23,024 bases of DNA from a virus: IMG/VR virus record IMGVR_UViG_3300027847_002746, positions 1-23,024 of that record; one strand, given 5' to 3'. The position numbers were made by a program, and so were the translations under genes. Each line of letters starts with the position of its first letter. Position 1 is the first letter of the stretch. Shown here piece after piece: positions 7,482-23,024 of this stretch. The notes under the pieces were generated by a model. That model was not told where the DNA came from. It saw nothing but the letters and a program-made list of their open reading frames with translations, and did no database searches.

Positions 7482-7511
7482 GACGTCCTTATACTGAAGA
7501 GGATTACGAAG

Positions 7512-8682: not shown

Positions 8683-9577
8683 GACAATTGTCTACCTCAT
8701 ATCGGGTCGAGCACACCTGCCAAACTTGGTGATCTCGATCCTCGACCTGCGTACTATTGCCGGATGGAAGGGCAACATCGAGGTTCACGCCTGGCCTGAA
8801 TCTCTGGACATCGTGAATGAAATCGCGACTGACAGACGACTTGACATCTCCGTCCACGAGAGGAAGCCAAAGTACCGTGGTAAGAATGCTCAGTTTCTCG
8901 ACAAAACCAAAATGATGCAGCAGCTTACCAGCAAACGACCAACAGAGTCATTCATCTATCTGGATGCCGATACCTCTCCTGTCAAGCCGATAGACGAGTT
9001 GTTTGAGATGCTCGAGTATTACTCGTTCATCACGACCCAATTCAATCTGTGGACGATAGGGAAGGGAACGATTCAGAAACGAGTCGCACGACTGCTGGAA
9101 CACAATCACATGCCTCGCAAGATGGTCATCGATTGTATTGCGGATTTCGACTTCCCCTCTCTTAACGGAGGGATCTGGGGCGTGAGAGGTGAATCCAAAG
9201 CGTTGGCAGCGTGGTCCCATTGGACGGACTTGCACAAAACGACTCTCTTCATAGCTGACGAGGTCTGCCTCCACCCAGTCGCTCACGATCTACGCGAGAC
9301 TGACGCCTGTGGCGTTGCTACTGGAGGTCTGTGGAATGCGTCGTCGAAGTATTTGCCACGCAGCACAAACCGTTCTGACGTGAAGATATGGCACTTTCAT
9401 GGTGATTCGAATTTGCGTCCAGACAAATCCCCATTAGGCTTTGAGCTGTGGTGGCCTCGCTACTTGTTCGCATTAGAGAACAAAGTGGGCAAGATCGACG
9501 AATGGTGGAATGCAATCAACAACAAGCATCTCCGTCGTCGCGAAAAGGAAGCTGGTTTTGATACTTGTTCTTGGTAA
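8675..9577 (+). CDS. putative glycosyltransferase, GT-A-like (nucleotide-diphospho-sugar type)
   Basis: TTG at 8675 is the chosen start: it overlaps the previous stop by eight bases, has AGAGAG upstream and gives MDKTIVYLISGRAHLPNL, a good first beta strand of a GT-A fold. IYLDADTSPVKP (about 94-105) carries the Asp-x-Asp (97, 99), and LNGGIWGVRGES resembles the acceptor-side Gly-Gly region of GT8-like and related transferases. KIWHFHGD near the C-terminus supplies a conserved-looking His pair. Length 300 aa. A second transferase next to a different one suggests sequential addition of sugars. Confidence 0.75.
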   Translation: MDKTIVYLISGRAHLPNLVISILDLRTIAGWKGNIEVHAWPESLDIVNEIATDRRLDISVHERKPKYRGKNAQFLDKTKMMQQLTSKRPTESFIYLDADTSPVKPIDELFEMLEYYSFITTQFNLWTIGKGTIQKRVARLLEHNHMPRKMVIDCIADFDFPSLNGGIWGVRGESKALAAWSHWTDLHKTTLFIADEVCLHPVAHDLRETDACGVATGGLWNASSKYLPRSTNRSDVKIWHFHGDSNLRPDKSPLGFELWWPRYLFALENKVGKIDEWWNAINNKHLRRREKEAGFDTCSW

Positions 9578-9587
9578 GGAGTTTTTG

Positions 9588-10235
9588 ATGGACCTCGCAG
9601 CACGCAAAGAAGAAGCTTTCAAGAAATTGCCCAACGAGCAAAACGTGGGCATTGAGGGCAAGAAACAGATGGCGTTTACCAAGTCTTGGTTCCGCTATCG
9701 CAATCAGAAGACGTGGAGTACGTTCCTGCTTCCGAAATACGGCGGAATGGATCCCGTCAAGATGGTTCAGATCGGAGTGTTTGAGGGTATGGACCTGGTG
9801 TGGTGCTTGCAAAACATTCTGAAGAATCGCGAGTCACACGCCGTTGCCATCGATCCTTGGGAGCCAACTCGCAAGCTCAAGAAAGATAGAATGAATCAGG
9901 TCGAAGCGAATGCTCGTGCCAATTTGTCAGTTGCTCCAGGTAAGGTGACAATCCACAAAGGTTTCAGTGCCGACGTTTTGAAGGTGCTTCCAAAAGAATC
10001 ATTCGACCTCGTTGTAGTCGACGGCGATCATAACTCGGACGCTGTTTACAAAGACGCGATGCTTTCACTGCCGTTGCTGAAGAAGGGCGGCTGGATGCTG
10101 TTTGACGACGTCCGTAATCGACGCGAGAAGGCAGATCACGTCCAAGCTGGTTTGGATGATTTCAAAGCAGACTTCGGAGACAGGGTTGAAGAAGTTTGGT
10201 TTCATCGTCATTGTGATTGCTTAGAAAAGATCTAA
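9588..10235 (+). CDS. SAM-dependent methyltransferase (Methyltransf_24-like)
   Basis: ATG at 9588 is preceded by TAAGGAG at a proper distance, which decides the start over an upstream in-frame ATG lying inside the previous gene. The 215-residue protein has KMVQIGVFEGMDLVWCL (about 58-74, the Gly-containing loop of class I methyltransferases), VAIDPWEP, and FDLVVVDGDHNSDAVYKD (139-156), the aspartate-rich strand typical of Methyltransf_24 proteins, followed by GGWMLFDDV. Such enzymes often O-methylate sugars in surface glycans. It starts ten bases after the second glycosyltransferase. Confidence 0.85.
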   Translation: MDLAARKEEAFKKLPNEQNVGIEGKKQMAFTKSWFRYRNQKTWSTFLLPKYGGMDPVKMVQIGVFEGMDLVWCLQNILKNRESHAVAIDPWEPTRKLKKDRMNQVEANARANLSVAPGKVTIHKGFSADVLKVLPKESFDLVVVDGDHNSDAVYKDAMLSLPLLKKGGWMLFDDVRNRREKADHVQAGLDDFKADFGDRVEEVWFHRHCDCLEKI

Positions 10236-10876
10236 TGAAACAGCACGAGTTCAAGAGCTACAAAGCCTATCGTCTTGCTCAAGATCGAATTACCAATCGC
10301 AAGTTGAATAAAGTCAAGTTGAGGTGCTTCGCGATTCATGAAGTGGTCGCCGCTTGTTTTGAGCATTATGGGTATCCTAGAGGAAACTGTCCCACGCAGG
10401 GGCTCTGCCACGGTGTACGAACAGGACAAGAACTGGATCTGTTTCAATTCTTTTTTGGTGGAGATTGGATTGGAACAGAGATCTGCAAACGGGCGGCTGA
10501 TCGAGACGACAGAGTGCTGCTGCAAGACTTTGATCAGATACAGAAGGGGTGGCACGATAATTTTGATGTTATCTACACCAATTCGTTTGACCACAGCCGA
10601 GACCCGCGTAATACTCTTGAAACTTGGCTGATGTCACTCAAGCCAACTGGAACACTCTACATTGAGTGGACGGAGTGGCACGATAAGCTAGGGACGCGAG
10701 GTAATTTCGCAGATTGCTTTGCCGCAACAGATGAAGAGTATCGAGAGTTATTTGAAGAGCAGGCTGTTGTTCAGTCTGTTCTATCTGTTACTGGTCCCGA
10801 TGAATGTCTCAGGAAGATATTCGCCATTAAGAGGAAGCCGAGCTGTGCAAAAGGCATTGATCAGGATGATTCGTGA
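10235..10876 (+). CDS. methyltransferase-like protein (class I SAM fold)
   Basis: ATG at 10235 shares one base with the previous stop (TAATG). The 213-residue protein contains GLCHGVRTGQELDLFQFF, then GTEICKRA, DFDQIQKGW and FDVIYTNSFDHSRDP followed by LKPTGTLYIEWTEWHD. The last two segments match motif positions of type-11-like methyltransferases (Asp strand and post-motif loop with Pro-x-Gly). The usual Gly-rich motif I (G-x-G) is weak, so substrate or even activity is uncertain. Its coding region overlaps the next gene by about 30 bases. Confidence 0.7.
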   Translation: MKQHEFKSYKAYRLAQDRITNRKLNKVKLRCFAIHEVVAACFEHYGYPRGNCPTQGLCHGVRTGQELDLFQFFFGGDWIGTEICKRAADRDDRVLLQDFDQIQKGWHDNFDVIYTNSFDHSRDPRNTLETWLMSLKPTGTLYIEWTEWHDKLGTRGNFADCFAATDEEYRELFEEQAVVQSVLSVTGPDECLRKIFAIKRKPSCAKGIDQDDS

Positions 10877-11420
10877 CGCGGTTGGTGAACCAAAAACAGG
10901 AGTAGAGGTAGGTGTCTACAAAGCTGAGACATCCGTTGCTTTGATTAAGGCGTTCGTTGATTGTCGTCTCTACTTTGTTGATATGTGGAAGGCATGGGAC
11001 GAAGGTTCTACCTATCACAAAACGCACAAACGAACAGGCAAGCTCACGCAAGATGAGTGGGACAAAATCAAAGATCTCGCCTGGGATAAAATCCAACATC
11101 TCAATCGGGTGGGGGATCGAAATATCGGTAGGGGTATCACCAATCACTGCCTCATCTTCACACTGCCGTCAATCAAGGTAGCAGCAGCATCCAAAGACAA
11201 GGAATACGATTTTGTCTTTATCGATGCGAACCACTCATACCAATCCGTCAAAGAGGATCTCGATGCGTGGCTTCCGAAGACACGTGGCATTATTTGTGGT
11301 CACGATTTCGGAGGCACGTACAAGGGTGTCCAGAAAGCAGTTGAAGAGAAGTTTGGGAGAGACAAAATCATCTCCCCAGGGAAGCGTCTTTGGGGCTACA
11401 TCGTAAAGGATGAAGAATGA
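10845..11420 (+). CDS. SAM-dependent methyltransferase (Methyltransf_24-like)
   Basis: The start was set at GTG 10845 because GAGGA lies about nine bases upstream; the frame is open further upstream but overlaps the previous gene deeply. GVEVGVYKAETSVALIKA is a clear SAM-binding loop, LYFVDMWKAW the second strand, and YDFVFIDANHSYQSVKEDL the acidic strand, followed by GIICGHDFGGTY. About 191 aa. It resembles the gene product at 9588-10235, so the two may have arisen by duplication. Probable targets are sugars of a surface polymer, inferred from neighbours. The stop overlaps the next ATG. Confidence 0.8.
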   Translation: MQKALIRMIRDAVGEPKTGVEVGVYKAETSVALIKAFVDCRLYFVDMWKAWDEGSTYHKTHKRTGKLTQDEWDKIKDLAWDKIQHLNRVGDRNIGRGITNHCLIFTLPSIKVAAASKDKEYDFVFIDANHSYQSVKEDLDAWLPKTRGIICGHDFGGTYKGVQKAVEEKFGRDKIISPGKRLWGYIVKDEE

Positions 11421-11977
11421 TTAGATACAAGGGTTTTTCTTTCTGCTCAGCACCTCGTACAGCAACCACATGGACCATCGATGTACTCGGTAGGCTTGGT
11501 ATCGAGCCTGTTGAAGGTCGTGCGTCTGCAAAGCATCAGCCGTGGCCAAAATACGAGAGTCAGATACAATTGTCGATGGTTCGGCATCCGTACACCTGGC
11601 TCAAATCATATTACTTTTCTCTTGGTGGAGGACACGTAGACGTTCCTGCTGTTGACAATGTCTTCAAGATGCACTCTCGCGAGTCCAAATCTTTTACCGA
11701 GTTCGTCGGTAGATTAGATGAGGGTGCTGTGGGGACGATGTTCGATACTTACAAGGCAGGCTCAGTGCTCCGTATGGAGGATCTCCCTCATTGTCTGTTT
11801 GATTTTCTCGCTCCTTTCGGCTTCAAAGTGGATGAAGGAATACTGAAAGGATTGAACCCTCTCAATCAAACATCTTGGCACAGGTTCAAAGAAGTCGCGA
11901 AGATAGATGATAAGAAGCTTCGTGCAATCGTCACTCGTAAAGAAGAGGACTTTTGCGACACCTATGATTACTGGTAG
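11417..11977 (+). CDS. sulfotransferase-like protein
   Basis: APRTATTWTIDVL (residues 12-24) near the N-terminus is like the 5'-phosphosulfate-binding loop of PAPS-dependent sulfotransferases, and MVRHPYTWLKSYYFS (53-67) is like the 3'-phosphate-binding Arg/Ser motif (R55, S63). Both sit in the right order. At 186 aa it is shorter than most full-length enzymes but comparable to small bacterial and phage members. Starts with ATG overlapping the previous stop by four bases (ATGA). It could sulfate a glycan made by the neighbouring transferases. The PAPS family call is good, the substrate unknown. Confidence 0.75.
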   Translation: MIRYKGFSFCSAPRTATTWTIDVLGRLGIEPVEGRASAKHQPWPKYESQIQLSMVRHPYTWLKSYYFSLGGGHVDVPAVDNVFKMHSRESKSFTEFVGRLDEGAVGTMFDTYKAGSVLRMEDLPHCLFDFLAPFGFKVDEGILKGLNPLNQTSWHRFKEVAKIDDKKLRAIVTRKEEDFCDTYDYW

Positions 11978-11979
11978 GC

Positions 11980-12174
11980 GTGAGCAAGAATCTTGAGCAG
12001 CGTTTGGATGGGATTGACAGGGCGATTGAAGACTTTGAAGATTACGACGTCACGCGTCCGTGTAAGTTCTTTCCAGGTTCCAATGAAAAGATAGCCTTCC
12101 TATGTCATAGGTGGGCGTTGAACCAACCACTCTGTCTTGAGGAGGACAATCCAGGTGACGACGAGCGCCAATAA
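11980..12174 (+). CDS. small conserved-looking hypothetical protein, 64 aa
   Basis: GTG at 11980 is two bases after the sulfotransferase stop. The product has an acidic helix (NLEQRLDGIDRAIEDFED), then PGSNEKIAFLCHRWALNQ, ending in LCLEEDNPGDDERQ. The pattern G-x-x-E-K-I-x-x-L-x-x-R-x-x-x-x-x-P-L resembles small phage proteins found beside sugar or capsid genes, but I have no name for them. Real-gene status rests on spacing, the overlap with the next gene (about 20 bases) and composition. Confidence 0.6.
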   Translation: MSKNLEQRLDGIDRAIEDFEDYDVTRPCKFFPGSNEKIAFLCHRWALNQPLCLEEDNPGDDERQ

Positions 12175-12895
12175 TTCCATCGAGATTGTCACGCATTGCT
12201 GGGCAGGACAAACAGATATCTACGCCTACCTGTTACGGTACCAGTTGTCATCACTCTTCAGTCGGACGAACGATTGCTGGGTTTCTATCACAGTGGCGTA
12301 CGCAAAAGATGATCCCAAGACTGTCCAGTGCTTGAAGGAAATGGAACCTCTGCTGACGACAAATGGCGTCCGTCTTGTGCTGCTGCCGCTTCCTCATTCC
12401 CATCTGTTCCGAAGAGCTTGTGGTAGAAACATAGCAGCAAAACAGACAGATGCCGATGTAGTGTGGTTCACGGATTGCGATTATCTCTTCCACAATCTGT
12501 CTCTGGAAGTCGCGATCGAAGAATGCGATTTAGACAGACGCTGCGTCTACTATCCGCGAACGGTAGGTGCGAACATAGATGAGCTGGCAGGCGATAGGCT
12601 GATCGAACGCTCGAGAAAAGTTCATGAAGATTGGTTCTTGGCAGACGAGAAACTGTTCGTGCCAAAACATTACGGACGAGCGATTGGAGGAATCCAAATC
12701 GTGTCAGGCGATTTGGCGAGGGAGGAGGGATACCTCGAAGGGAATGAGAGATCCAAACCGCTGGAGAAGAACGTAGATGGATTCCGTTCCTGCAGATGCG
12801 ATCAGCATTATCGCAAAGCGGTTGGCAAGAGCGTTGCAGTTGACATTCCAGGCGTGTATCGAATCCGGCATACACCAAAAGGACGGAACCTGTAG
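12155..12895 (+). CDS. putative glycosyltransferase with DCD motif
   Basis: The start is taken as GTG 12155 because GAGGAGG sits nine bases upstream; an in-frame ATG at 12137 overlaps the purine run itself. The protein (246 aa) has VVWFTDCDYLFHNL with Asp-x-Asp at 107-109, and GGIQIVSGDLAREEGY further on, typical of GT-A folds (galactosyltransferase-like N-terminal type). DGFRSCRCDQHYRKAV holds a Cys/His cluster of unknown role. It is the last gene of the cluster and its stop lies inside the convergent terminator hairpin. Confidence 0.75.
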   Translation: MTTSANNSIEIVTHCWAGQTDIYAYLLRYQLSSLFSRTNDCWVSITVAYAKDDPKTVQCLKEMEPLLTTNGVRLVLLPLPHSHLFRRACGRNIAAKQTDADVVWFTDCDYLFHNLSLEVAIEECDLDRRCVYYPRTVGANIDELAGDRLIERSRKVHEDWFLADEKLFVPKHYGRAIGGIQIVSGDLAREEGYLEGNERSKPLEKNVDGFRSCRCDQHYRKAVGKSVAVDIPGVYRIRHTPKGRNL

Positions 12896-12901
12896 TTCCG
12901 T
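12877..12901 (-). terminator. convergent hairpin terminator between the two gene blocks
   Basis: ACGGAAC and GTTCCGT form a perfect 7-bp stem (12883-12901) with a 5-nt loop that contains the stop codon of the plus-strand gene ending at 12895. Read on the minus strand, the stem is followed by CCTTTT, so it should end transcription of the HD-domain operon stopping at 12916. On the plus strand there is no T-run, so it would act weakly at best. The two gene blocks converge here with only 20 bases between stops. Confidence 0.6.
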
Positions 12902-12915
12902 TCAATCCCTGGTAA

Positions 12916-13434
12916 TTATCGTGGGTCGAGTCTGTTCATCTGCTCCACGATACCGATGCCCGTTGCTGTGGACATGAAACGCATCTCCGGAGTTATGTGA
13001 ACCCTACCCAGGTCGAGTCGATCTGCATCCCAGCAGCACGCGACATCGATGTCTGGATGTGTGCGTCCTCCGTTGTGATCTGTGAGCGCCTCTTTTAGCG
13101 TCTCCCACTCGTCGTCTGTTACCCGTAGGATGCCTCGGGTTCGTAATGTCTGAGCGAACAGTGCAGCACGGCGACCGTGTCGTGGGTCGTGCACCTCATT
13201 TTCGCGACAGCAATCGTGCAGCCACGCAAACGCCTGAGAGATTTTAGGAGACCCTCCCTCCATGTATGCAAGCATCATGCCAGCAGTGCGGACACGCTCC
13301 CAATGATCGTAGCCGTGAGCCGTGTGCTCTTGATTGAGTGGGCCATCTTCAGCACGCTGGCAGCATTCATCAAGCAAGGTTTTCCAAAGGGTGTCTGTCA
13401 TCTCTGTGGTGGACGCTTTTTTCGTCGGTGCCAT
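12916..13434 (-). CDS. HD-domain metal-dependent phosphohydrolase
   Basis: The 172-aa product has the HD-domain signature: HGYDHWERV (His40, His44), WLHDCCREN with His73-Asp74, TDHNGG, and CCWDADRLDLGRV for the C-terminal metal ligand region. Such proteins hydrolyse phosphate esters or nucleotides, for example dNTP or (p)ppGpp-type hydrolases; the particular substrate cannot be inferred. It starts seven bases after a small gene and is the last of the minus block. ATG 13434 is used, although a downstream ATG at 13401 is possible. In a phage, a nucleotide hydrolase could serve DNA metabolism or counter host defence. Confidence 0.85.
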   Translation of the reverse strand: MAPTKKASTTEMTDTLWKTLLDECCQRAEDGPLNQEHTAHGYDHWERVRTAGMMLAYMEGGSPKISQAFAWLHDCCRENEVHDPRHGRRAALFAQTLRTRGILRVTDDEWETLKEALTDHNGGRTHPDIDVACCWDADRLDLGRVHITPEMRFMSTATGIGIVEQMNRLDPR

Positions 13435-13441
13435 TTATCTC

Positions 13442-13636
13442 TCAGATCGTTTGAAGTACGGAAGAATCCGCAGTGAAGACGAGACCATCAAAAGTGTATC
13501 TCACTTTATCAGTCCCCTCGACTACGGTGAAGGTCTTCTGCTTCTTCACAACCCGATCAATAGTGATGAGCACGTCGCCTTCCAGAACGATAACGTCGCC
13601 CTGTCTCAGTTCGGTGTAGCTTCTTGGAGTAAGCAT
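13442..13636 (-). CDS. small hypothetical protein, beta-rich, 64 aa
   Basis: ATG at 13636 has AAAGGAG seven bases upstream. The product (RSYTELRQGDVIVLEGDVLI, then RYTFDGLVF) alternates hydrophobic and polar residues like a small beta-barrel or SH3-like domain. No family is recognised. It is seven bases upstream of the HD gene and probably shares its mRNA. Confidence 0.65.
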   Translation of the reverse strand: MLTPRSYTELRQGDVIVLEGDVLITIDRVVKKQKTFTVVEGTDKVRYTFDGLVFTADSSVLQTI

Positions 13637-13656
13637 CTCATTTCTCCTTTGATCGA

Positions 13657-13685
13657 ATTGTGCAAGAGGAAGATTAAAGGTTCAA
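13657..13685 (-). promoter_or_regulatory. weak sigma-70-like promoter for the HD operon
   Basis: On the minus strand TTGAAC (13685-13680) and CACAAT (13662-13657) are separated by 17 bases; each matches four of six consensus positions. It lies just upstream of the small gene starting at 13636. Position is right, but such matches occur by chance, so support is slight. Confidence 0.25.
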
Positions 13686-13704
13686 CCTGAAACTTGAATA
13701 TTTT

Positions 13705-13874
13705 GGTGAGGAGGTGTCTTCTGCACGGCACTCAGTCTAGCCGAGTGCAGCTTCTTCGAGAGGCTGTAGTGCCGGGTCCAGGTCGCCGAGTTTTACCTGC
13801 CTTTGTATCCCCGATTCGCTTCTGGATGCCTATTCAGGCACACCGCTTTACCGTGCAGAAGGCACCTCTTCTCC
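13705..13874. repeat. 170-bp inverted-repeat element with internal hairpins, no gene
   Basis: The 26-bp arms at 13705-13730 and 13849-13874 match at 22 positions as inverted copies (core CTTCTGCACGG is perfect). Between them the minus-strand sequence offers several short hairpins: GTGCCT/AGGCAT with a 4-nt loop, CAGGT/ACCTG, CAGC..TCT/AGA..GCTG, and GCACTC/GAGTGC. No start codon with a useful reading frame is present. It lies between the gene stopping at 13877 and the promoter of the 13636 gene. It could be a structured RNA, a MITE-like element or a processing site; flanking target duplications were not seen. Confidence 0.55.
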
Positions 13875-13876
13875 TG

Positions 13877-14092
13877 TTATACGATTTCGCATCTTGCACA
13901 TCGCGTGCCTGTGCAGTTTCCGGCGATTCCTCGATGATCTGACACGTTGGCCCCATCGAGAGTAAGAATGTTCACGATGCCTTTTTTCTCCAATCCTTTG
14001 GCTGCTCTGACGTCCGTTGTCCGCCCAACGCCATTTACCAGGGTTCGGCGGATTGTCTTCAGTGCGTTGAGTTGGTTGCTTGAAAGTTTCAT
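13877..14092 (-). CDS. small winged-helix-like hypothetical protein, 71 aa
   Basis: ATG at 14092 lies behind AGGAAACAGGAAACACAG, giving a purine-rich ribosome site, so the longer upstream frame is not used. The product (LSSNQLNALKTIRRTLVNG, RAAKGLEKKGIVNIL) looks like a small winged-helix DNA-binding domain, with a C-terminal Cys pair CARCEIV and a further Cys in GNCTGTRC that could hold zinc. Expressed from promoter copy A. A phage regulator is plausible but not shown. Confidence 0.65.
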   Translation of the reverse strand: MKLSSNQLNALKTIRRTLVNGVGRTTDVRAAKGLEKKGIVNILTLDGANVSDHRGIAGNCTGTRCARCEIV

Positions 14093-14134
14093 CTGTGTTT
14101 CCTGTTTCCTGTTTGCTGTCCACGTCACACAACA

Positions 14135-14163
14135 AGTATAACACAGGTTGTGGAGATTAGCAG
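14135..14163 (-). promoter_or_regulatory. cassette promoter copy A
   Basis: On the minus strand CTGCTA (14163-14158) is the -35 position, followed by a 17-nt spacer and TATACT (14140-14135) as -10. The spacer carries CACAACC. The gene start at 14092 is about 43 nt downstream of the -10. The -35 overlaps the end of a UUCG-loop hairpin. Confidence 0.75.
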
Positions 14164-14177
14164 CCCCGAAGGGCTGC
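14160..14177 (-). terminator. UUCG hairpin of promoter copy A
   Basis: On the minus strand GCAGCCC-TTCG-GGGCTGC is a perfect 7-bp stem with a C(UUCG)G loop, an unusually stable form. It follows the stop at 14199 by about 20 bases. There is no long T-run, so it may act as an insulator, pause or weak terminator and shares its 3' side with the next -35. Confidence 0.5.
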
Positions 14178-14198
14178 CTTTCCCATCGATTGTGAAGA

Positions 14199-14468
14199 CT
14201 AGTACTCTTCACCTTCGTCCCAGTGTTCATCGTCTCCTTCCTCGTCATCGTCGTCAACTTCTTCTCCTTCGTCGCACACCGACATCAATGTGCGGAGCAA
14301 TGCGTTGTAGTCGCCGCTCATGCACTCATTGCACACGGCTTTGACTGCTGCTGCATTCCAACCCTGCCGCTTTGCAGCATTGCTGAACGCACCCATCAAC
14401 GCGAATGCGTTACCGTCGAGCCCAACAAGTGTCAGCTCAACTTTTTTGCAGCCTTCTGGAAGTTCCAT
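14199..14468 (-). CDS. small hypothetical phage protein with acidic tail, 89 aa
   Basis: ATG at 14468 has AAAGGAG upstream. The product has LTLVGLDGNAFALMGAF near the N-terminus, a pattern I recognise from small proteins encoded in many phage and mobile genomes, function unknown, followed by a C-terminus of almost only Asp/Glu (DDDDEEGDDEHWDEGEEY). The acidic tail hints at mimicry of nucleic acid or binding to a basic protein. Promoter copy B lies upstream. Confidence 0.75.
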   Translation of the reverse strand: MELPEGCKKVELTLVGLDGNAFALMGAFSNAAKRQGWNAAAVKAVCNECMSGDYNALLRTLMSVCDEGEEVDDDDEEGDDEHWDEGEEY

Positions 14469-14510
14469 CTCTCATCTCCTTTGTTGCGTTGTTTGTTAAC
14501 CTCTATAACA

Positions 14511-14539
14511 AGTATAACGACCACAACCGCGATTAGCTG
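14511..14539 (-). promoter_or_regulatory. cassette promoter copy B
   Basis: CAGCTA (14539-14534), 17-nt spacer with GGTTGTG, TATACT (14516-14511) on the minus strand. It drives the 14468 gene; the leader contains GAGGTTA, seen also behind copies C and G. Upstream of the -35 lies the A-rich GAAAGATGAAGAAACAAG, shared with copies E and F. Confidence 0.75.
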
Positions 14540-14567
14540 TCATGGAGTGCTTGTTTCTTCATCTTTC

Positions 14568-14742
14568 TCACTTCTTTTTTGAGGGTCGATCTGCTGGATC
14601 TTCTTCCAATTCGTCGATTTCTTTCTGTGATTCACGGTTGAGAATTGAGCGGACAGGAGTGCCGTCTTTTTTGTGATAGGTGCTGGAGTTGTGCTGCCCG
14701 TCGTTGTGCTTGCGATAGTTGGCGTTATTCGTCTCCCCCCAT
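14568..14742 (-). pseudogene. small gene disrupted by a G6 tract after its ATG (or a slippage-controlled gene)
   Basis: Just after the stop at 14743 the minus strand reads TGAATGGGGGGAG. The ATG at 14742 leads to a stop after five codons. If the six-G run (14740-14735) had five, the same ATG would open 57 codons of sensible protein (TNNANYRKHNDGQHNSS, later SQKEIDELEEDP, ending SKKK) to the TGA at 14568. No ATG, GTG or TTG exists in that frame. Explanations are a real frameshift, a sequencing error in a homopolymer, or slippage control. It would follow the 62-aa gene in the same mRNA. Confidence 0.45.
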
Positions 14743-14931
14743 TCAGCAAGATTCCATCGCCAGTTTCAAAGTCTTGAATTCTTCTGGATACTTGCAGTCC
14801 GCATTCCAGTTTGCAAATTTCCGAACGTTCAGAGCGCCCATTCCAATCAGGAATTCGCCGTAACTCCACGTTCCTTCTCCTTCGTTGTATTCCCAGATGC
14901 GTCCTTCGCTGTCTTTTCGTGTTCGTGTCAT
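14743..14931 (-). CDS. small hypothetical protein, 62 aa
   Basis: ATG at 14931 is preceded by GGAAAG. The product begins TRTRKDSEGRIWEYNEGEG and has aromatic-rich WEYNEGEGTWSYGEF and NWNADCKYPEEFKTLKL. Family unknown. The stop abuts the disrupted gene at 14742. Expressed from promoter copy C, whose -10 lies about 45 nt upstream. Confidence 0.6.
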   Translation of the reverse strand: MTRTRKDSEGRIWEYNEGEGTWSYGEFLIGMGALNVRKFANWNADCKYPEEFKTLKLAMESC

Positions 14932-14975
14932 TGTTTTGCTTTCCGTTGTTGCGTTGTTTGCTAACCTCTACAACG

Positions 14976-15004
14976 AGTATAACGACCACAACCGCGATTA
15001 GCTG
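14976..15004 (-). promoter_or_regulatory. cassette promoter copy C
   Basis: CAGCTA (15004-14999), 17-nt spacer with GGTTGTG, TATACT (14981-14976). It is nearly identical to copy B over about 50 bases and starts immediately after the stop at 15005-15007, so the -35 touches the end of the upstream gene. Confidence 0.75.
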
Positions 15005-15193
15005 TCACGGAGTGCTTCGTTTCGCTTCCTTTTCAATAAGTTTCTTCAAAGCAATCGCGGCGTCAGTTGCTTTTCTATCTCCACCGTTCAAGCAGGCTCG
15101 GCAGTACACTGTGCCGTCGCGTGCCTCATTTTCGCAGTCGCTTGTCGAGCAGATACTGTCGATCAACATCTCTTGTTTTTCAGTTAATTTCAT
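15005..15193 (-). CDS. small Cys-rich, zinc-finger-like protein, 62 aa
   Basis: ATG at 15193 follows GAAGG. The product carries SICSTSDCENEARDGTVYC and CRACLNGG, giving four spaced Cys residues plus C-x2-C, consistent with a small zinc-binding module. It begins 11 bases after the stop of the 120-aa gene and is likely on the same transcript. Function unknown. Confidence 0.65.
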   Translation of the reverse strand: MKLTEKQEMLIDSICSTSDCENEARDGTVYCRACLNGGDRKATDAAIALKKLIEKEAKRSTP

Positions 15194-15204
15194 CAGCCTT
15201 CTTT

Positions 15205-15567
15205 CTAAGAAAAAGTGATATCAGATTCGTAACGGTATGCTGTCACGACCACTTGCAGCAGTATGCCGCAGTACCGTTCAAGCTGCTGTGCAGTGCATCC
15301 GCACAGAATCTCTGTGCAGCCGCCTGTGTCGTCCGGAGTGTTGACGACCTCGCTCCGCTCAAATTCTTGATGCTGCTCTTCCAGCCCGCGTTGCAGTTTA
15401 CGGACTTTGTCGTACAGATCTCCAGCTGCGATCTGCCCGCACCCGTCTTCAATTGCGGCAGGGTTTAATCCCAAAGCCTCTCCAAGATGCTGGAAATTGC
15501 CGTTTGCGACATTGAGCTCTGGAGCGTGAGAGTCTTCTGCAGATGGGACCCAGAATGTGATGGACAT
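15205..15567 (-). CDS. hypothetical phage protein, 120 aa
   Basis: ATG at 15567 has AAGGA upstream. The product starts SITFWVPSAED, continues ELNVANGNFQHLGEALGLNP and ends with a Cys-containing region (GGCTEILCGCTAQQLERYCG). The N-terminal pattern is known to me from phage early-region hypotheticals without a function. Placed between two small genes in the copy D operon. Confidence 0.75.
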   Translation of the reverse strand: MSITFWVPSAEDSHAPELNVANGNFQHLGEALGLNPAAIEDGCGQIAAGDLYDKVRKLQRGLEEQHQEFERSEVVNTPDDTGGCTEILCGCTAQQLERYCGILLQVVVTAYRYESDITFS

Positions 15568-15581
15568 GGAGATTCCTTGAG

Positions 15582-15953
15582 TTATGCGAGCTTGAAAGCT
15601 GCCGTTGCTTTGGTGATCGAGCGTTTGGCGACAACACCCTTTTTCACCATGTGATTGAGAACTTCGTTGAATTCGTCTGCGTGTTGAAACGTGATTGCTT
15701 CCGCGACACCCAGGCGGATTTCTCCGCGTTTGCGTTCGCGACCATCGTCCAGAACCAGCACGATGTATGCTGCCACTTCTTGGACTCGCTTTAGGCGCCT
15801 GTCCATGCTTGCAGCGTCGCGAGATTCAGCTGCTGCGAAACGATCGAGGACCTCTCGCCCGGAGAGCTCGCCTGTCATCTCGCCAATCATGCAGCTTGCA
15901 AGTGCATCGAGCACATGGTTGTCAGCAGCGAAATCTGGAAGTTGTTTGGTCAT
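15582..15953 (-). CDS. hypothetical protein, possible winged helix at C-terminus, 123 aa
   Basis: ATG at 15953 follows CAGGAG at good distance; the frame is open further upstream through the promoter and was not used. The product is largely helical (DALASCMIGEMTGELSG, RLKRVQEVAAYIVLVLDDG) and ends with HMVKKGVVAKRSITKATAAF, resembling a recognition helix plus wing. First gene behind copy D, followed by two more in line. Confidence 0.65.
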   Translation of the reverse strand: MTKQLPDFAADNHVLDALASCMIGEMTGELSGREVLDRFAAAESRDAASMDRRLKRVQEVAAYIVLVLDDGRERKRGEIRLGVAEAITFQHADEFNEVLNHMVKKGVVAKRSITKATAAFKLA

Positions 15954-15992
15954 TTTGTGTCTCCTGTTTGTTGTTTCGTTTGCCTTACAACA

Positions 15993-16021
15993 AGTATAAC
16001 GTAGGTTGTGGAGCAAAGCTG
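15993..16021 (-). promoter_or_regulatory. cassette promoter copy D
   Basis: CAGCTT (16021-16016), 17-nt spacer with CACAACC, TATACT (15998-15993). The leader (AAGGCAAACGAAACAACAAA) is shared with copy E. The -35 overlaps the 3' arm of a UUCG hairpin. Confidence 0.75.
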
Positions 16022-16034
16022 CCCGAAGGCAGCT
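16017..16034 (-). terminator. UUCG hairpin of promoter copy D
   Basis: AGCTGCC-TTCG-GGCAGCT on the minus strand, a perfect 7-bp stem with a UUCG loop, followed by TTG. It follows the 22-codon frame stopping at 16050. It may end or pause the upstream transcript and forms the -35 region of the next promoter. Confidence 0.5.
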
Positions 16035-16049
16035 CGTTCCTCATCTTTC

Positions 16050-16118
16050 TCAGTCTTCTTTTTCAGCTTCTTCCAGGCTCGCAATGCTGCATAAATCGTC
16101 CAGCCAACCGTTGTCCAT
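16050..16118 (-). CDS. 22-codon ORF, remnant or miniature copy of the 16423 gene end
   Basis: ATG at 16118 has GGGAG eight bases upstream. The 22-residue product (MDNGWLDDL, then SLEEAEKED) matches the last residues of the 94-aa protein at 16423-16707 (IDNDWLGDF, then RLEEAEEED). The DNA over about 80 bases is roughly 84% identical by eye, and an ATC-to-ATG change creates the start. It may be a duplication remnant or a small peptide sharing a tail with its paralogue. Confidence 0.5.
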   Translation of the reverse strand: MDNGWLDDLCSIASLEEAEKED

Positions 16119-16150
16119 CGTACCGTCTCCCGTTGTTGTTGTGAAGTGAA

Positions 16151-16324
16151 TCAGACCTTGCCAATCATCTCGCCGCATTCGTCCCAAATTTCGATAAAGG
16201 AATATCCAGTTCCTTTCGGGCAGTGTCGGACAACATACGTCCAGTCTTCGTCTCCGCGTTGCATGTCGGCAGCGGCTTTTTCAGCGGCTTCAGGCGTGAA
16301 AAGTTTTTCAGTTCTGTCGAGCAT
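16151..16324 (-). CDS. small hypothetical phage protein, 57 aa
   Basis: Two ATGs exist: 16333 sits directly against CAGGAG with no spacing, while 16324 has nine bases, so 16324 is preferred. The product runs EKLFTPEAAEKAAADM, GDEDWTYVVRHCPKGTGYSF, IEIWDECGEMIGKV. The central W-T-Y-V-V and the Gly-Tyr-Ser-Phe-Ile-Glu-Ile stretch is a pattern of small phage proteins of unknown function. Driven by copy E. Confidence 0.7.
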   Translation of the reverse strand: MLDRTEKLFTPEAAEKAAADMQRGDEDWTYVVRHCPKGTGYSFIEIWDECGEMIGKV

Positions 16325-16365
16325 CTTCTTCATCTCCTGTTTGTTGTTTCGTTTGCCTTACAACA

Positions 16366-16394
16366 AGTATAACGACCACAACCGTGTTCAGCTG
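16366..16394 (-). promoter_or_regulatory. cassette promoter copy E
   Basis: CAGCTG (16394-16389), 17-nt spacer with GGTTGTG, TATACT (16371-16366). Upstream A-rich GAAAGATGAAGAAACAAGC is shared with copies B and F; the leader is shared with copy D. Confidence 0.75.
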
Positions 16395-16422
16395 CCACGA
16401 AGTGCTTGTTTCTTCATCTTTC

Positions 16423-16707
16423 TCAGTCTTCTTCTTCAGCTTCTTCCAAACGAGCAACGCTGGTAAAATCTCCCAGCCAATCGTTGTCGATCGCATTCTG
16501 CGACTCAGCAATTATCTCCTCTTCAAAAGGCGTCTCCCGCAGCTGAACGATCAAACGCTCAAGCCACTGCGGATTGTCTTTCAGGTCGTCAACGGTAACG
16601 GCACGGGTGCCAGACTCAGTGTCTGCAAATCGACCTGCCAGTGCGAGCAGCTCCGCAATTGCCGCTTCTCCAAAAGTGAGCTCGACTGTGATTTTGAGTT
16701 CTGCCAT
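16423..16707 (-). CDS. hypothetical protein, 94 aa
   Basis: The frame is open upstream; ATG 16716 abuts AGGAG while ATG 16707 has nine-base spacing and is chosen. The product (MAELKITVELTFGEAAIAEL) has a strand followed by helices and ends with an acidic tail, LEEAEEED. No family known. Its last 22 codons are copied at 16050-16118. Driven by copy F. Confidence 0.65.
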   Translation of the reverse strand: MAELKITVELTFGEAAIAELLALAGRFADTESGTRAVTVDDLKDNPQWLERLIVQLRETPFEEEIIAESQNAIDNDWLGDFTSVARLEEAEEED

Positions 16708-16751
16708 TGCTGTCATCTCCTGTTTGCTGTTGTTGTCCACGTCACACAACA

Positions 16752-16780
16752 AGTATAACGTAGGTTGTGTCAATTAGCTG
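16752..16780 (-). promoter_or_regulatory. cassette promoter copy F
   Basis: CAGCTA (16780-16775), 17-nt spacer with CACAACC, TATACT (16757-16752). It stands at the upstream end of the cassette run; only the repeat array and a terminator lie beyond it until 17069. The leader (GTGACGTGGACA) matches that of copy A. Confidence 0.75.
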
Positions 16781-16842
16781 CCACGAAGTGCTTGTTTCTT
16801 CATCTTTCTTGAAGAGTTTTTTCACGGAGAAGGGACTGAACG

Positions 16843-16998
16843 GAATCATTACTGATGAATCATTAGTGGCATCCCTTCATAACGGAAGAATCATTACTGA
16901 TGAATCATAACGGAAGAATCATTAGTGGCATCCCTGAATCATACTGGATGAATCATTACTGATGAATCATAACGGAAGAATCATTACTGATGAATCAT
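16843..16998. repeat. array of ten GAATCAT repeats, mostly 14-nt period
   Basis: GAATCAT starts at 16843, 16857, 16888, 16902, 16916, 16936, 16950, 16964, 16978 and 16992. Seven of nine gaps are exactly 14, the others 31 and 20. Units vary after the heptamer: TACTGAT, AACGGAA, ACTGGAT, and TAGTGGCATCCCT. The 14-nt period is not a multiple of three, and no frame is open, so it is not coding. Together with promoter F and the terminator this fills the gene-free stretch 16708-17068. Candidate origin iterons or a regulator-binding array. Confidence 0.7.
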
Positions 16999-17017
16999 TA
17001 GTGATGATGAGACCACG

Positions 17018-17044
17018 AAAAAAGGGGACCAACGAGGCCCCCTT
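17018..17044 (-). terminator. strong Rho-independent terminator of the DUF932 operon
   Basis: On the minus strand GGGGGCC-TCGTT-GGTCCCC is followed by TTTTTT (17023-17018), a GC-rich stem with a six-T tail, about 25 bases after the stop at 17069. It separates the replication operon from the repeat array. Confidence 0.85.
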
Positions 17045-17068
17045 CCAACGCTGCGCCTTCCGACCGCA

Positions 17069-18225: not shown

Positions 18226-19119
18226 TCAGTATTCCATCAGAAATTGCTCGCGGAGCTCTTGCAGTTCGTGCTTATCAGCAGATGCTGGATCGTCGCCAGT
18301 CTCCAATTGGATGTTGATTGTCAGTCCATCAAACGGAGCCAACTGCTTCGCGAGAGCATCCGCCCGCTGCTGTGCATCCGCACTCGCATCGAAACAGATG
18401 ACGCGATTTGGATATTTGGCAAGCCGCATCACTTGCTCTTTTGTGTACGAGGTTCCGAATGTGCATCCCGATCCAGGCCCTATCGCCCACGCGTCGAAGG
18501 GACCCTCAACTATCACGACTGAGTAACGTAGCAGATGCTCTCCGTAGATGAGATGTTTGTGCGGATAGATCTCCTCTTTTTCACTTGCAGAGTGATAGCG
18601 GCGCTCTGCTGTGTCATCAATCGTCCTCGTTGTCCAGGAGACAGTCTTGCCCTTCTCGTCCATAATGGGGATGTAGATTCGCCATTGCAGTTTTGAAGAG
18701 ATACCAATGCCGCCGACCATCCAAAGTTGATGCAAGACATCTGGATCAAATCCTCGTTTAGAGAGATATTTCTCGTGTGCTGCTTGCAGTGGGCCAATAC
18801 CAGCGGGCTTGACAAGCACCTTGTCCGGGTCATAGACGACCGCCGTGTCCTCTGCCCTTGTCCGCGGTAACGAGTTCCAGAGCTTTACCGCCTCGGCGTG
18901 ACTGATGCGGCACAGCATGGCAAGAACATTGGGTCCTTTCTGGAGACCACATTGCCAGCAGTTGACGCGGTTGGTACGTTCCTCAAACCCTAGCCGATAC
19001 TTCTGCCATCCAGGTGAACAAAAAGGGCAATCCACACCGATCCATCCAGAGCGGACGTGGTGATGTTGAGTGACAAACGGTACATGGTACCGCTCTAGGA
19101 TTTGAGTGACGTTGTTCAT
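18226..19119 (-). CDS. DnaG-like primase (zinc finger plus Toprim)
   Basis: The N-terminus has a zinc ribbon, C31PFC34 and C54WQC57, and the C-terminal half a Toprim domain: VVIVEGPFDAWAIG (about 201-214, with the catalytic Glu) and RVICFDASADAQQRADALA (from 239), where Asp-Ala-Ser replaces the usual Asp-x-Asp. Length 297 aa, short for a full DnaG but fit for a phage primase without a helicase domain. Its ATG overlaps the stop of the ribbon-helix-helix gene (ATGA), so it is coupled. It would prime phage DNA synthesis. Confidence 0.85.
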   Translation of the reverse strand: MNNVTQILERYHVPFVTQHHHVRSGWIGVDCPFCSPGWQKYRLGFEERTNRVNCWQCGLQKGPNVLAMLCRISHAEAVKLWNSLPRTRAEDTAVVYDPDKVLVKPAGIGPLQAAHEKYLSKRGFDPDVLHQLWMVGGIGISSKLQWRIYIPIMDEKGKTVSWTTRTIDDTAERRYHSASEKEEIYPHKHLIYGEHLLRYSVVIVEGPFDAWAIGPGSGCTFGTSYTKEQVMRLAKYPNRVICFDASADAQQRADALAKQLAPFDGLTINIQLETGDDPASADKHELQELREQFLMEY

Positions 19120-19274
19120 TTCCTCTTCCGGGCGTTGTGGCGAGCGATTTCGTTTTCGAGAAGTTCGATCGTTCGATCACGCATGGAGATCTTTCGATCT
19201 ACGCAAACCTTCTTGAATTCGTCTCTCACGTCTTCAGGCACGCCTGGTACGTTGATTGTGCAAATCTTGCTCAT
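19116..19274 (-). CDS. ribbon-helix-helix regulator, 52 aa
   Basis: A short gene between helicase and primase with ATGA overlaps at both ends. The product has an N-terminal strand (KICTINVPGVP), a helix (EDVRDEFKKVCVDRKI) and a second helix (RDRTIELLENEIARHNARK), the ribbon-helix-helix pattern of CopG/Arc-like DNA-binding proteins. It may regulate its own operon or bind a nearby repeat such as the GAATCAT array or the promoter palindrome, as inference. Confidence 0.7.
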   Translation of the reverse strand: MSKICTINVPGVPEDVRDEFKKVCVDRKISMRDRTIELLENEIARHNARKRK

Positions 19275-20635
19275 TTCGATTCCTTTTTCATTTCGTTTAG
19301 AAGCTCTTCATAAATGTTGAAGGTGGCAACTTCTTTGTCACCATCAATTGCGGCGGATGCCACTTTTTGTCGGCTTTGAAGAATGCGACACAATCGCTCC
19401 TCAATCGTCCCTTTACCGACGATGTAATCGATCAGGATTTCTCTCTCCTGCCCGATACGCTCCAGTCTTCCCTCACATTGAAAGTGAGTGGAAGGATTCC
19501 ACCACAGCTCGACGAACGATAATCGCCGTGCTGCCTTTTGTAGACCATCAACTCCAATGCCCGCTGCCTTGATATTGCAGACAGCGAGGCGTGTTTCTGG
19601 ATCGCGTTGAAAAACATCAACCGCGAGTTGTCGATCCTTACCTGTTACTCCACCGTGAATTTGAATTGATTTGACAGAGATGTTCTTTACGAGCGACTCT
19701 CCGATGTCTCGATGGATGCACATCACCACGAGCTTCTCATCTGGATTCTCCTTCAACCAGCCGTGCATCTTTTTGCACACGGCATCTATCTTCAATCGTG
19801 CTGCAAGGCGAAGCAGGTATCCAACCTGTGCCATGCCAGCTGCCTTGAGTGATGAGTTTGCCTTCTTCGGATGCTTCTTGCGTATCCAGATGGCAAAATT
19901 GTCCCTCGCTTCTTCATACTGCTGTGGATCGGACAGCGGAGCTCTCAGTATCTGTCTCTTCAGATCAGGCAGCCCAACTATCACTCCCTTCCTGCGTCGT
20001 ATCATCCCCAGTCGCGTCAGCTTGGCGTGCAGCTCCGGCAAGTTTGAAGCTCCACTGTAATCCATTCCTTGAAATCCCATCTTGGGAGCACAAAACCTGT
20101 TCGCGTAGATTTGGAAATTGTTGAACTCCTTTGGCCAGATGATGTTGACTGTTGAGTACAGCTCCACAGGTCGATTGACAATTGGAGTGCCGCTCATTGC
20201 GAGCGTACGTCCAATCTTCCTGCTCAACTTGCGAGCAGCTTGTGTCCGTTTGCTCTGCTTGTTTGCGAGGTACTGGCTTTCATCCAGTATCATCATTTTC
20301 AGTTTGAGGGATTCGAGATATGTTCTCCAATGCGGAAGCACGTCGTAGTTGATGATGAGAATCTTCGCAGCTCCATCGATCACTCCCTTCTCAGATGGAG
20401 GAGTCCGCCCATTGCAGATCGCAGTCGTCATCCCCATCTTGTTCGCTTCACGCTGCCAGTTAATCTTGACGGCGGAAGGACAGACAATGACAGCGGGCGT
20501 CCAGTCTGGATTGCGTCGCAAACAACCGAGAGCTGTGATGGTTTTCCCCAGTCCCATGTCGTCTGCCAGCAAGCAGCTACCATCGCATTCCTCGATGCGA
20601 AGGATAGCTACTTTTTGATGCTCAAATGGTTTCAT
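19271..20635 (-). CDS. SNF2-family DEAD-like helicase
   Basis: ATG at 20635 overlaps the sigma gene stop; the open frame extends upstream but inside the sigma gene. LLADDMGLGKT (22-32) is Walker A with the SNF2-type DDMGLGKT, LDESQYLANK (117-126) is the DESQ version of Walker B, SGTP (148-151) motif III, and QCEGRLERIGQ (386-396) motif VI. Total 454 aa, the core helicase only, as in phage SNF2 proteins that translocate on dsDNA in replication or recombination. Coupled to the ribbon-helix-helix and primase genes. Confidence 0.9.
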   Translation of the reverse strand: MKPFEHQKVAILRIEECDGSCLLADDMGLGKTITALGCLRRNPDWTPAVIVCPSAVKINWQREANKMGMTTAICNGRTPPSEKGVIDGAAKILIINYDVLPHWRTYLESLKLKMMILDESQYLANKQSKRTQAARKLSRKIGRTLAMSGTPIVNRPVELYSTVNIIWPKEFNNFQIYANRFCAPKMGFQGMDYSGASNLPELHAKLTRLGMIRRRKGVIVGLPDLKRQILRAPLSDPQQYEEARDNFAIWIRKKHPKKANSSLKAAGMAQVGYLLRLAARLKIDAVCKKMHGWLKENPDEKLVVMCIHRDIGESLVKNISVKSIQIHGGVTGKDRQLAVDVFQRDPETRLAVCNIKAAGIGVDGLQKAARRLSFVELWWNPSTHFQCEGRLERIGQEREILIDYIVGKGTIEERLCRILQSRQKVASAAIDGDKEVATFNIYEELLNEMKKESK

Positions 20636-21144
20636 ATTAGTTGGAGAGCTCCCTCTATCTCCGTGAATGAATCGTTCACTTCGTTTACCGTCCAACCTTT
20701 GTCGTGCAGGTATTCTCTGATGCACGTTCGATAATTGCGAGGAGCTCCGCCCTTGCCTTCAATCGCTGTCCACAGGTCCGCGGGTGTCTCTTGAATCAGC
20801 TGCAAGACAGTTTCTGCCTCTTCGCCAACCAACGCCACCAGGTCGGGGACGATTGACTCTTCTTCTTCACGCTGCTGTGGAATGTACTCTCCGAGTGAGC
20901 TTGTTTTGATACGCCGCTTGTTGAATCTCCACTCGCCCATCAATCTCCGATAGATGGATGTTGACAGGTAGCAGTGGAACGGAGCTCCACCTGGCTTCCA
21001 CTGCTCGTAGGCAGTCATGTAGGTCAAGTTTGCAGTGGACATCAGGTCGTCAATCAGTCCGCCGTGCCTCTTTTGGAACTTGTGGCAGACGAAAAACATC
21101 AGTCTCTGGACTTCCTCGTAAGTCTCTTCGATCGGGCTTTGCAT
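20632..21144 (-). CDS. phage sigma-70-like factor
   Basis: The 170-aa product begins with a helix (EEVQRLMFFVCHKFQKRH), then GGLIDDLMSTANLTYMTAYE and FHCYLSTSIYRRLMGEWRF, matching sigma region 2 (the D-L-x-x-x-A-x-x-G-type helix and the core Y-x-x-x-I-R-like segment with basic residues). The C-terminal 60 residues may hold a degenerate region 4 helix-turn-helix (YRTCIREYLHDKGWTVNEV). It is the first gene after a sigma-70-like promoter and overlaps the helicase ATG. It could redirect polymerase to phage promoters, perhaps the CAGCT/TATACT copies. Confidence 0.7.
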   Translation of the reverse strand: MQSPIEETYEEVQRLMFFVCHKFQKRHGGLIDDLMSTANLTYMTAYEQWKPGGAPFHCYLSTSIYRRLMGEWRFNKRRIKTSSLGEYIPQQREEEESIVPDLVALVGEEAETVLQLIQETPADLWTAIEGKGGAPRNYRTCIREYLHDKGWTVNEVNDSFTEIEGALQLI

Positions 21145-21211: not shown

Positions 21212-21607
21212 CTACGGCTTGGAAAGCATAATTTTCCGGATTGCCTCCTTGCAGGGGACAAGGTCTCCGAAGAAGAAATTGTGGCGTCGTGCCACCTCCC
21301 AATCTTTGGAGGAGATGGCTTTGTCGCCCGCTTTGCGAAAATCTTCCAGCAGCTTATCCATTGCTTCAGACCAGGTTGGTTCTCGTATGCTGCCGAGCGG
21401 AGTGATCTCCCTTCTTGTTGGGTTGATGCGGACGTTGCTGCCGCAGTTGAGACAGATGTAAACCACGTTCATGTCCGTCGCGATCTGATTCATCGGTTCA
21501 TCGAACGTCCAATTCTCGATCGTCGGAACAATTTTGATGGGCTTGGTTGCTTCGAAGATAGCGGGCTCCTCGTTGCAGTGCGGACAGGTCATTTCGTTTT
21601 TGCTCAT
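21212..21607 (-). CDS. zinc-ribbon-like hypothetical protein, 131 aa
   Basis: ATG at 21607 overlaps the upstream stop (ATGA), with GAGGAGG as ribosome site. The product has C8PHC11 and C52LNC55, forming a likely zinc ribbon with a long loop, and a helical C-terminal half (WSEAMDKLLEDFRKAG, DWEVARRHNFF). Function unknown. It ends four bases before the -35 of the sigma promoter and closes the right-hand operon; no terminator was seen in between. Confidence 0.65.
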   Translation of the reverse strand: MSKNEMTCPHCNEEPAIFEATKPIKIVPTIENWTFDEPMNQIATDMNVVYICLNCGSNVRINPTRREITPLGSIREPTWSEAMDKLLEDFRKAGDKAISSKDWEVARRHNFFFGDLVPCKEAIRKIMLSKP

Positions 21608-22008
21608 TCCGCCTCCTCGTTTTTGATATCTGACAAATGAGCAACAGCTCCACGATCCATTATCTGCTTAAGGCGTTTCCGCATTGGCAGAGAGATCGTA
21701 TCGCCTAGGTCAAGTCCGTCCGCCCACTCCAGCAGCTCGCCGACAATGTGAGCCAGCACCACAACTCGCGTTTCTTTGTAGTTGCGGTTCGCTCCGTTTA
21801 TCGCGGTGAACTCAAGACCTGAAGCGATGTCGATTTCTACTTTTGTGCAGATCTTCCGGATGAGTTGTTCTGAAGGACTAGTCTTCAATTCTCGTTTTAA
21901 GAATCTGAGGATGTGATGCATCGGCTTTTTGTCCATCTGCTTTTTGTGGAGGACGAGGCAATTCATCACGTCGAGTTTTTGGTCATCAGTCAGTTTTCGG
22001 GTTCTCAT
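21604..22008 (-). CDS. hypothetical helical protein, 134 aa
   Basis: ATG at 22008 shares a base with the stop of the 36-codon frame upstream (TAATG). The product is helical with basic segments (KLTDDQKLDVMNCLVLHKKQ, HHILRFLKRELK, SEQLIRKICTKVEIDI), possibly DNA-binding in style, but no family is recognised. Part of the 22808-21212 operon. Confidence 0.6.
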   Translation of the reverse strand: MRTRKLTDDQKLDVMNCLVLHKKQMDKKPMHHILRFLKRELKTSPSEQLIRKICTKVEIDIASGLEFTAINGANRNYKETRVVVLAHIVGELLEWADGLDLGDTISLPMRKRLKQIMDRGAVAHLSDIKNEEAE

Positions 22009-22118
22009 TATTCTTCTCCAAAGGTCAAGGAGTCTGCCTCATCAGGTGCCGGGCAACACCCCAGCACGACGCCCAGGTTGGGCGTTTCGGCATCAGCTGC
22101 TCTGCTTTGTCGTTTCAC
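22008..22118 (-). CDS. possible 36-aa ORF overlapping both neighbours
   Basis: GTG at 22118 lies inside the end of the upstream gene, and the stop shares a base with the downstream ATG. The product (SRAADAETPNLGVVLGCCPA, then PDEADSLTFGEE) is protein-like and fills the only gap in this operon. The ribosome site is weak. Two perfect or near-perfect hairpins overlap it, so the segment could also be a structured RNA. Confidence 0.4.
   Translation of the reverse strand: MKRQSRAADAETPNLGVVLGCCPAPDEADSLTFGEE
22046..22085 (-). other. two tandem hairpins in an operon gap
   Basis: On the minus strand ACGCCCA-ACC-TGGGCGT (22085-22069, perfect 7-bp stem) is followed at once by GTGCTGGG-GTGTTG-CCCGGCAC (22067-22046, 8-bp stem with one wobble). 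No T-run follows, so a simple terminator is unlikely. They lie within the 36-codon frame and just before the 22008 gene. Confidence 0.5.
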
Positions 22119-22808: not shown

Positions 22809-22846
22809 CTCTGTGTCTCCTTGTTTGTTGCTTAACCTCTACAACA

Positions 22847-22875
22847 AGTATAACGACCACAACCAGCTTCAGCTG
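22847..22875 (-). promoter_or_regulatory. cassette promoter copy G
   Basis: CAGCTG (22875-22870), 17-nt spacer with GGTTGTG, TATACT (22852-22847). It lies 6 kb from the other copies and drives the 22808 operon, so the motif is not just a local tandem duplication. Confidence 0.75.
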
Positions 22876-22901
22876 CCTGGGAGTGCGTCCTTTTCCATCT
22901 T

Positions 22902-23024
22902 TTATGCAGATGGGCGAGGAGCTCCGTCTTCGTGTGCTGCACACATCATCAGATGGAGGGTGTATGCTTCCGCATCTTTGAGAATGCTGTCGAGCAAGGT
23001 GTCGAGATGTGATTCGAACCAGAC
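22902..23024 (-). CDS. C-terminal end of a gene cut by the window edge
   Basis: The minus strand is open from the right edge to TAA at 22904-22902, giving 40 residues (FESHLDTLLDSILKDAEAYT, then LHLMMCAAHEDGAPRPSA). Helical composition, family unknown. It precedes promoter copy G, as the other cassette genes do. Confidence 0.55.
   Translation of the reverse strand, partial: VWFESHLDTLLDSILKDAEAYTLHLMMCAAHEDGAPRPSA

Follow-up and report, generated by a model that had tools for sequence, protein, structure and literature searches.

A lineage-specific array of ten GAATCAT heptamers beside the replication genes of an uncultured phage

Results

Gene order around the array

The window (the whole stretch of 23,024 bases that was analyzed) is a single IMG/VR virus record and represents a phage fragment of ~23 kb. 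Genes to ~12.9 kb lie on the plus strand, the tail genes being followed by genes that resemble sugar-, methyl- and sulfo-transferases (labels assigned by reading the translations and judging their conservation rather than by a family search). From ~12.9 kb to the end of the window the genes lie on the minus strand and comprise small gene cassettes plus a block of replication-type genes. Read in the minus-strand direction the order is a gene encoding a sigma-70 region 2 protein (20632-21144), an SNF2-type helicase gene (19271-20725), a DnaG-like primase gene (18226-19119), a gene for a DUF932 (TIGR03299) phage-plasmid protein (17069-18106, the reading frame being open to 18163), an intrinsic terminator, the GAATCAT array, a promoter module and the small cassette genes.

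An earlier note on this DNA had described the array as untranslated, as next to a strong terminator and as neighbor to a replication operon, and each description was borne out. Stop codons are present in all six frames across the array, and the terminator of the DUF932 gene (GGGGGCC-TCGTT-GGTCCCC-TTTTTT; 17018-17042, minus strand) directly precedes it on the minus strand, although one separate scan missed this hairpin. The operon genes are those encoding the DUF932 protein, which is the nearest upstream gene on the minus strand, the primase, the SNF2 helicase and the sigma-like protein. On the other side of the array the minus-strand hexamer TATACT (16752-16757) is the putative -10 element of the next cassette promoter and lies within a repeated leader module (16718-16811; repeat families D1, D3 and D4), beyond which is a minus-strand cassette gene (16423-16707) encoding a 94-residue protein of no family. 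With the start codons we chose, no gap in the minus-strand half is longer than the 361 bp (16708-17068) in which the array lies. Flanked there by the terminator on one side and the promoter module on the other, the array is probably outside any mRNA.

The promoter-leader module precedes most of the minus-strand cassettes (14129-14166, 14477-14570, 14942-15035, 15960-16024, 16332-16425, 16718-16811 and 22813-22906). Its minus-strand sequence is GTTATACTTGTTGT, and it is adjoined by an element, CCACAACC/GGTTGTGG, found in either orientation. Two other minus-strand stretches have RNA features. Positions 22028-22092 match the Type II hammerhead ribozyme (Rfam RF02276, 45.7 bits, E 1.3e-6) and are intergenic, immediately upstream of the gene at 21604-22008. 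Positions 13700-13880, within a 240-bp gap between cassettes, are a candidate structured RNA (-70.9 kcal/mol, z -4.25) closed by 24-nt arms of 88% complementarity; Rfam gave no match at E values of up to 1. Long poly-serine C-terminal tails were seen on putative virion proteins, both in the window (5333-5656) and at another locus (L021:4402-5091 and 11699-12103, minus strand).

Anatomy and statistics of the array

Motif counting, Tandem Repeats Finder (TRF) and linker comparison delimited the array to 16843-16998 on the plus strand. The ten copies of GAATCAT that had been claimed are indeed there, exactly ten, all exact and all on the plus strand, starting at 16843, 16857, 16888, 16902, 16916, 16936, 16950, 16964, 16978 and 16992. 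The claimed 14-nt period needs qualification, since it describes seven of the nine intervals and fails for the other two (31 and 20): the start-to-start spacings are, in order, 14, 31, 14, 14, 20, 14, 14, 14 and 14. The array is built of 7-nt units or multiples of 7 nt in intergenic DNA, a 7-nt core alternating with 7-nt linkers that read TACTGAT (four times), AACGGAA (twice) or ACTGGAT (once). The intervals of 31 and 20 are accounted for by two longer linkers of 24 and 13 nt, both of which start with TAGTGGCATCCCT. Inspection of the sequence revealed a degenerate eleventh unit, TCATAACGGAA (16877-16887, plus strand), which by comparison with 16902-16915 is apparently GAATCATAACGGAA lacking GAA. 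Both inspection and TRF placed a degenerate end, TAGTGATGATGAG, at 16999-17011 (plus strand), where it resembles a TAGTGGC linker. The core is constant in 10 of 11 units and the linkers vary. TRF reported nested periods of 14, 28 and 62.

A density of ten GAATCAT copies per 156 nt far exceeds what chance would give. On both strands together the window has 13 copies versus 5.34 (sd 2.35) expected, a number reached by none of 100 shuffles, and just three of these are outside the array. No heptamer had more than five copies per 156 nt in 3000 Markov simulations matched for composition. The rest of the window lacks a second GAATCAT cluster, as does a contig of 30.7 kb from the same phage (below). 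The array is also the AT-richest 160-nt stretch of the window (0.64 versus a mean of 0.50, sd 0.037) and contains its least stable 60 nt of DNA, although, as GAATCAT is itself five-sevenths A+T, this is in part one fact counted twice. The prevailing 14-nt spacing (seven of nine intervals) equals 1.33 helical turns; successive sites would be rotated by ~120 degrees and come back into phase every 42 bp.

Relatives of the phage

The 30.7-kb contig IMGVR_UViG_3300036814_001747 (G001) is 99.97% identical to the window from 10389 to 16761. It has neither the array nor the DUF932 gene; the contig ends before the place of the array and so does not cover the site. It begins 23 nt past window position 16761, and those 23 nt (L011:1-24) are unlike the window: position 16761 is joined instead to CTGCTTGCGGGCAGCGGTTGTGG. 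The departure falls exactly at the putative -10 element of the cassette promoter, and the 23-mer beyond it has no other occurrence in IMG/VR. The divergence reflects either module exchange in the phage population or a fault at the contig end.

A search with the G001 capsid protein led to the best comparable relative, the 81.8-kb IMGVR_UViG_3300020180_000016 (G003), whose capsid is 59% identical. It has the same block in the same order: the sigma-like gene, the SNF2 helicase (37%), the primase (46-48%) and the DUF932 gene (38-40%). The DUF932 gene is followed by a terminator and then at once by a promoter module, and the 188 nt to the contig end contain no array. GAATCAT sites are scattered in G003, and the parts of it that were read contain no comparable intergenic array. 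Its other tandem repeats, of periods 9, 15 and 24, are coding-looking as a set, the individual repeats being unchecked, and it also carries a three-copy 20-nt repeat bearing a start-site-like AGGAGG...ATG. The earlier note had reasoned that the lack of a replication start signal, together with absence of the array from close relatives, would count against its reading. The comparison goes that way in part, since the array is absent at the syntenic place in G003, whereas the 99.97%-identical G001 stops short of it.

The two genomes share further features. A run of glycosyl-, methyl- and sulfotransferase-like genes lies behind the tail genes in both (window 6660-12895, plus strand; G003:C1 65947-72602; 32-54% identity). 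The sigma-SNF2-primase-DUF932 block runs with the tail genes in G003 (C1 74270-81569) and against them in the window (12.9-23 kb); one phage therefore has the block inverted relative to the other.

Searches of IMG/VR with the DUF932 and primase proteins found no close relatives, and the helicase protein found only distant ones. To address the host, the capsid was searched against 294 genomes of one phylum, giving two weak and uninformative HK97-type matches. When the array was compared with phages by BLAST, all matches were at chance level. We rejected a tie between the array and DUF932 genes, as none of 80 IMG/VR DUF932 loci (27-39% identity) has a GAATCAT array. Two of the 80, and only these, have another array upstream of the DUF932 gene, a different intergenic multi-copy array of CTCTACC/GACTCTAC in both orientations (L084:4334-4603 and L101:3674-3785); these two contigs are related to each other. 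Downstream of a pheT-like gene, a Streptococcaceae metagenome-assembled genome has a large GAATCAT/GAATCTAG array whose linkers are mixed (L193:4960-5405).

GC skew and candidate initiators

The proposal that the array marks an origin found no support in GC skew. Cumulative skew turns at ~12.9 kb, where gene direction switches, and there is no turn at the array. The skew sampled in G003 is all positive and likewise follows gene direction. Given that skew tracks gene direction in both phages, it is uninformative on the position of the origin and counts neither for nor against the array. No initiator gene was recognized in the window, which encodes several small proteins without a family. The structure predicted for one candidate binder, the protein encoded at 21604-22008, was poor (pLDDT 52).

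Discussion

The array is real, lineage-specific and intergenic, and the question is whether it serves as a binding site. It could instead be a simple tandem repeat of heptamers that arose by slippage or unequal exchange, has since decayed and has no dedicated function, which we consider a serious possibility that nonetheless falls below an even chance. Heptameric repeats are over-represented in bacterial intergenic regions, and slippage has been suggested as their source (PMC4692102); the TAACTGA arrays of Beggiatoaceae are another example (PMC4679880). The pattern of three GAATCAT copies spaced by 14 nt was found in GTDB genomes of unrelated phyla (76 stretches) as well as in IMG/VR (three unrelated contigs), where by our estimate ~0.1 would be expected in random sequence of the searched size. 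Nearly all are plain 7/14-nt repeats, and a few (L193, L162 and L158) combine 10-19 copies with linkers of mixed type. Since similar arrays are common in unrelated bacteria, the form of the array by itself implies no function. The nested periods of 14, 28 and 62 nt are a sign of successive duplications, and the lack of an array in G003 fits the same history. The invariant core was evaluated against neutral arrays simulated by tandem duplication and uniform substitution, with the number of unit types and the mean divergence matched. A 7-column block common to at least 10 of 11 units was held by 201 of 3000 neutral arrays (6.7%, p ~0.067), and thus the core is suggestive, but not significant, as a signal of selection. 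A decaying repeat would still be unusual in keeping ten cores identical while several linkers diverged. Also against slippage, the array is placed exactly in the terminator-promoter gap by the replication genes and (in the window and G001) is confined to a single locus, when heptamer families recur across a genome. Moreover, compact phage genomes seldom retain 150 bp of useless DNA.

Function could also take other forms. A cooperative operator or enhancer of the cassette promoter (~16752-16757) or of early genes would suit the distance of ~85 bp from the array to the putative -10 element downstream on the minus strand, the common facing of the sites and the four TGAT-GA-ATCA copies, which form dyads fit for a dimer. 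At least five cassettes have the repeated leader module, which argues that the phage has a common control scheme. However, the other cassette leaders lack a GAATCAT cluster, and G001, 99.97% identical downstream, has a different sequence upstream of the same -10 element; barring an assembly fault in those 23 nt at the contig end, the array would be dispensable for the cassette promoter. We consider this role unlikely. Less probable still is that the array serves a plasmid-like prophage as its centromere-like (parS/parC) site, with a ribbon-helix-helix protein binding in a 7-bp register. A single base separates AATCATT from the omega heptad WATCACW, and ATCA and TGAT alternate, oppositely oriented, from one heptad to the next, but exact WATCACW is absent from both array strands, TGAT is present in only about half of the linkers and no ParA, ParM, TubZ or ribbon-helix-helix gene was recognized among the window proteins scanned, the genome being incomplete. 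At least four contiguous WATCACW heptads are needed in omega parS (PMC9499535). We give equally little credence to an RNA element, such as a decoy or structured transcript made from the plus strand. Plus-strand RNA does fold better than shuffled sequences (z -3.4), an excess attributable to the array ends, which form an imperfect 24-nt palindrome (20 of 24 positions symmetric). In contrast, the minus strand (z 0.26) and single-stranded DNA (z -0.3) have no excess structure, the promoter scan found no promoter reading into the array on the plus strand, and no Rfam match was above chance. A cluster of GANTC (CcrM-type) methylation sites was rejected: GAATC is present in 10 of 10 cores, but the window has 94 GANTC sites versus 124 expected, and no host or methylase is linked to it.

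We slightly favor an iteron-like site over a slippage-born repeat. We put at roughly 40% the probability that the array is an iteron-like cis-acting DNA site bound by protein, its likeliest use being to initiate replication or to control initiation. The place and orientation of the array, its lack of translation, its probable lack of transcription and its low stability argue for this reading, whereas its absence from G003, the failure to recognize an initiator and the many similar repeats found elsewhere argue against it. The earlier suggestion of an iteron-like or regulator site, possibly an origin, is compatible with the anatomy (same-strand copies in untranslated, AT-rich DNA of a terminator-promoter gap) and gains nothing from the skew. 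A phage or host protein would bind the row of ten same-facing heptamers, perhaps cooperatively, and binding of an initiator to the GAATCAT copies would then open the AT-rich, weakly stable DNA of the array or DNA adjacent to it. The array would offer such a protein the sole large untranscribed-looking gap beside the replication genes, and replication may start there.

The spacing deserves comment. Iterons of plasmids are usually spaced by 17-22 bp (about two helical turns), and the 14 nt of the array is shorter. A 14-bp register, with its 120-degree rotation, is unusual for iterons and, as read from the repeat spacing, carries no demonstrated meaning here. It is conceivable, but improbable, that phages of this poorly known group have a replication-control site of a new type, in which a row of heptamers in a 14-bp register would be read by an unrecognized initiator, perhaps one of the small proteins without a family.

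If the array is a bound site, it would provide a concrete handle on replication start or its control in an uncultured phage group without a close named relative, and binding tests would have a defined target of 156 bp. A slippage repeat would instead teach caution: tidy heptamer arrays near replication genes are not by themselves origins.

Comparison with known systems

The array shares with the parS arrays of pSM19035 omega (ParB) its rows of heptads with an ATCA core (PMC9499535), but differs in having no exact WATCACW, in heptads that are not contiguous throughout and in the lack of visible partition genes. It resembles the heptameric repeats of bacteria, GGGAATC in Xanthomonas (PMC4692102) and TAACTGA in Beggiatoaceae (PMC4679880), in having a 7-nt unit or multiples thereof, an intergenic location, nested duplications and a patchy distribution. 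Those repeats, however, occupy many loci per genome, whereas the phage array is at one locus and combines invariant cores with diverged linkers. With the iteron origins of plasmids, phages and satellites, such as the PLE satellite origin (PMC7145576), it shares short direct repeats in non-coding DNA beside replication genes, AT-rich and easily melted DNA, and semi-palindromic units. It departs from them in that its units are 7 bp long and repeat every 14 bp, interrupted by intervals of 31 and 20, in having no recognized initiator and in the existence of a relative that has the same gene block without the array. For the PLE origin both binding and necessity were proven by experiment (PMC7145576).
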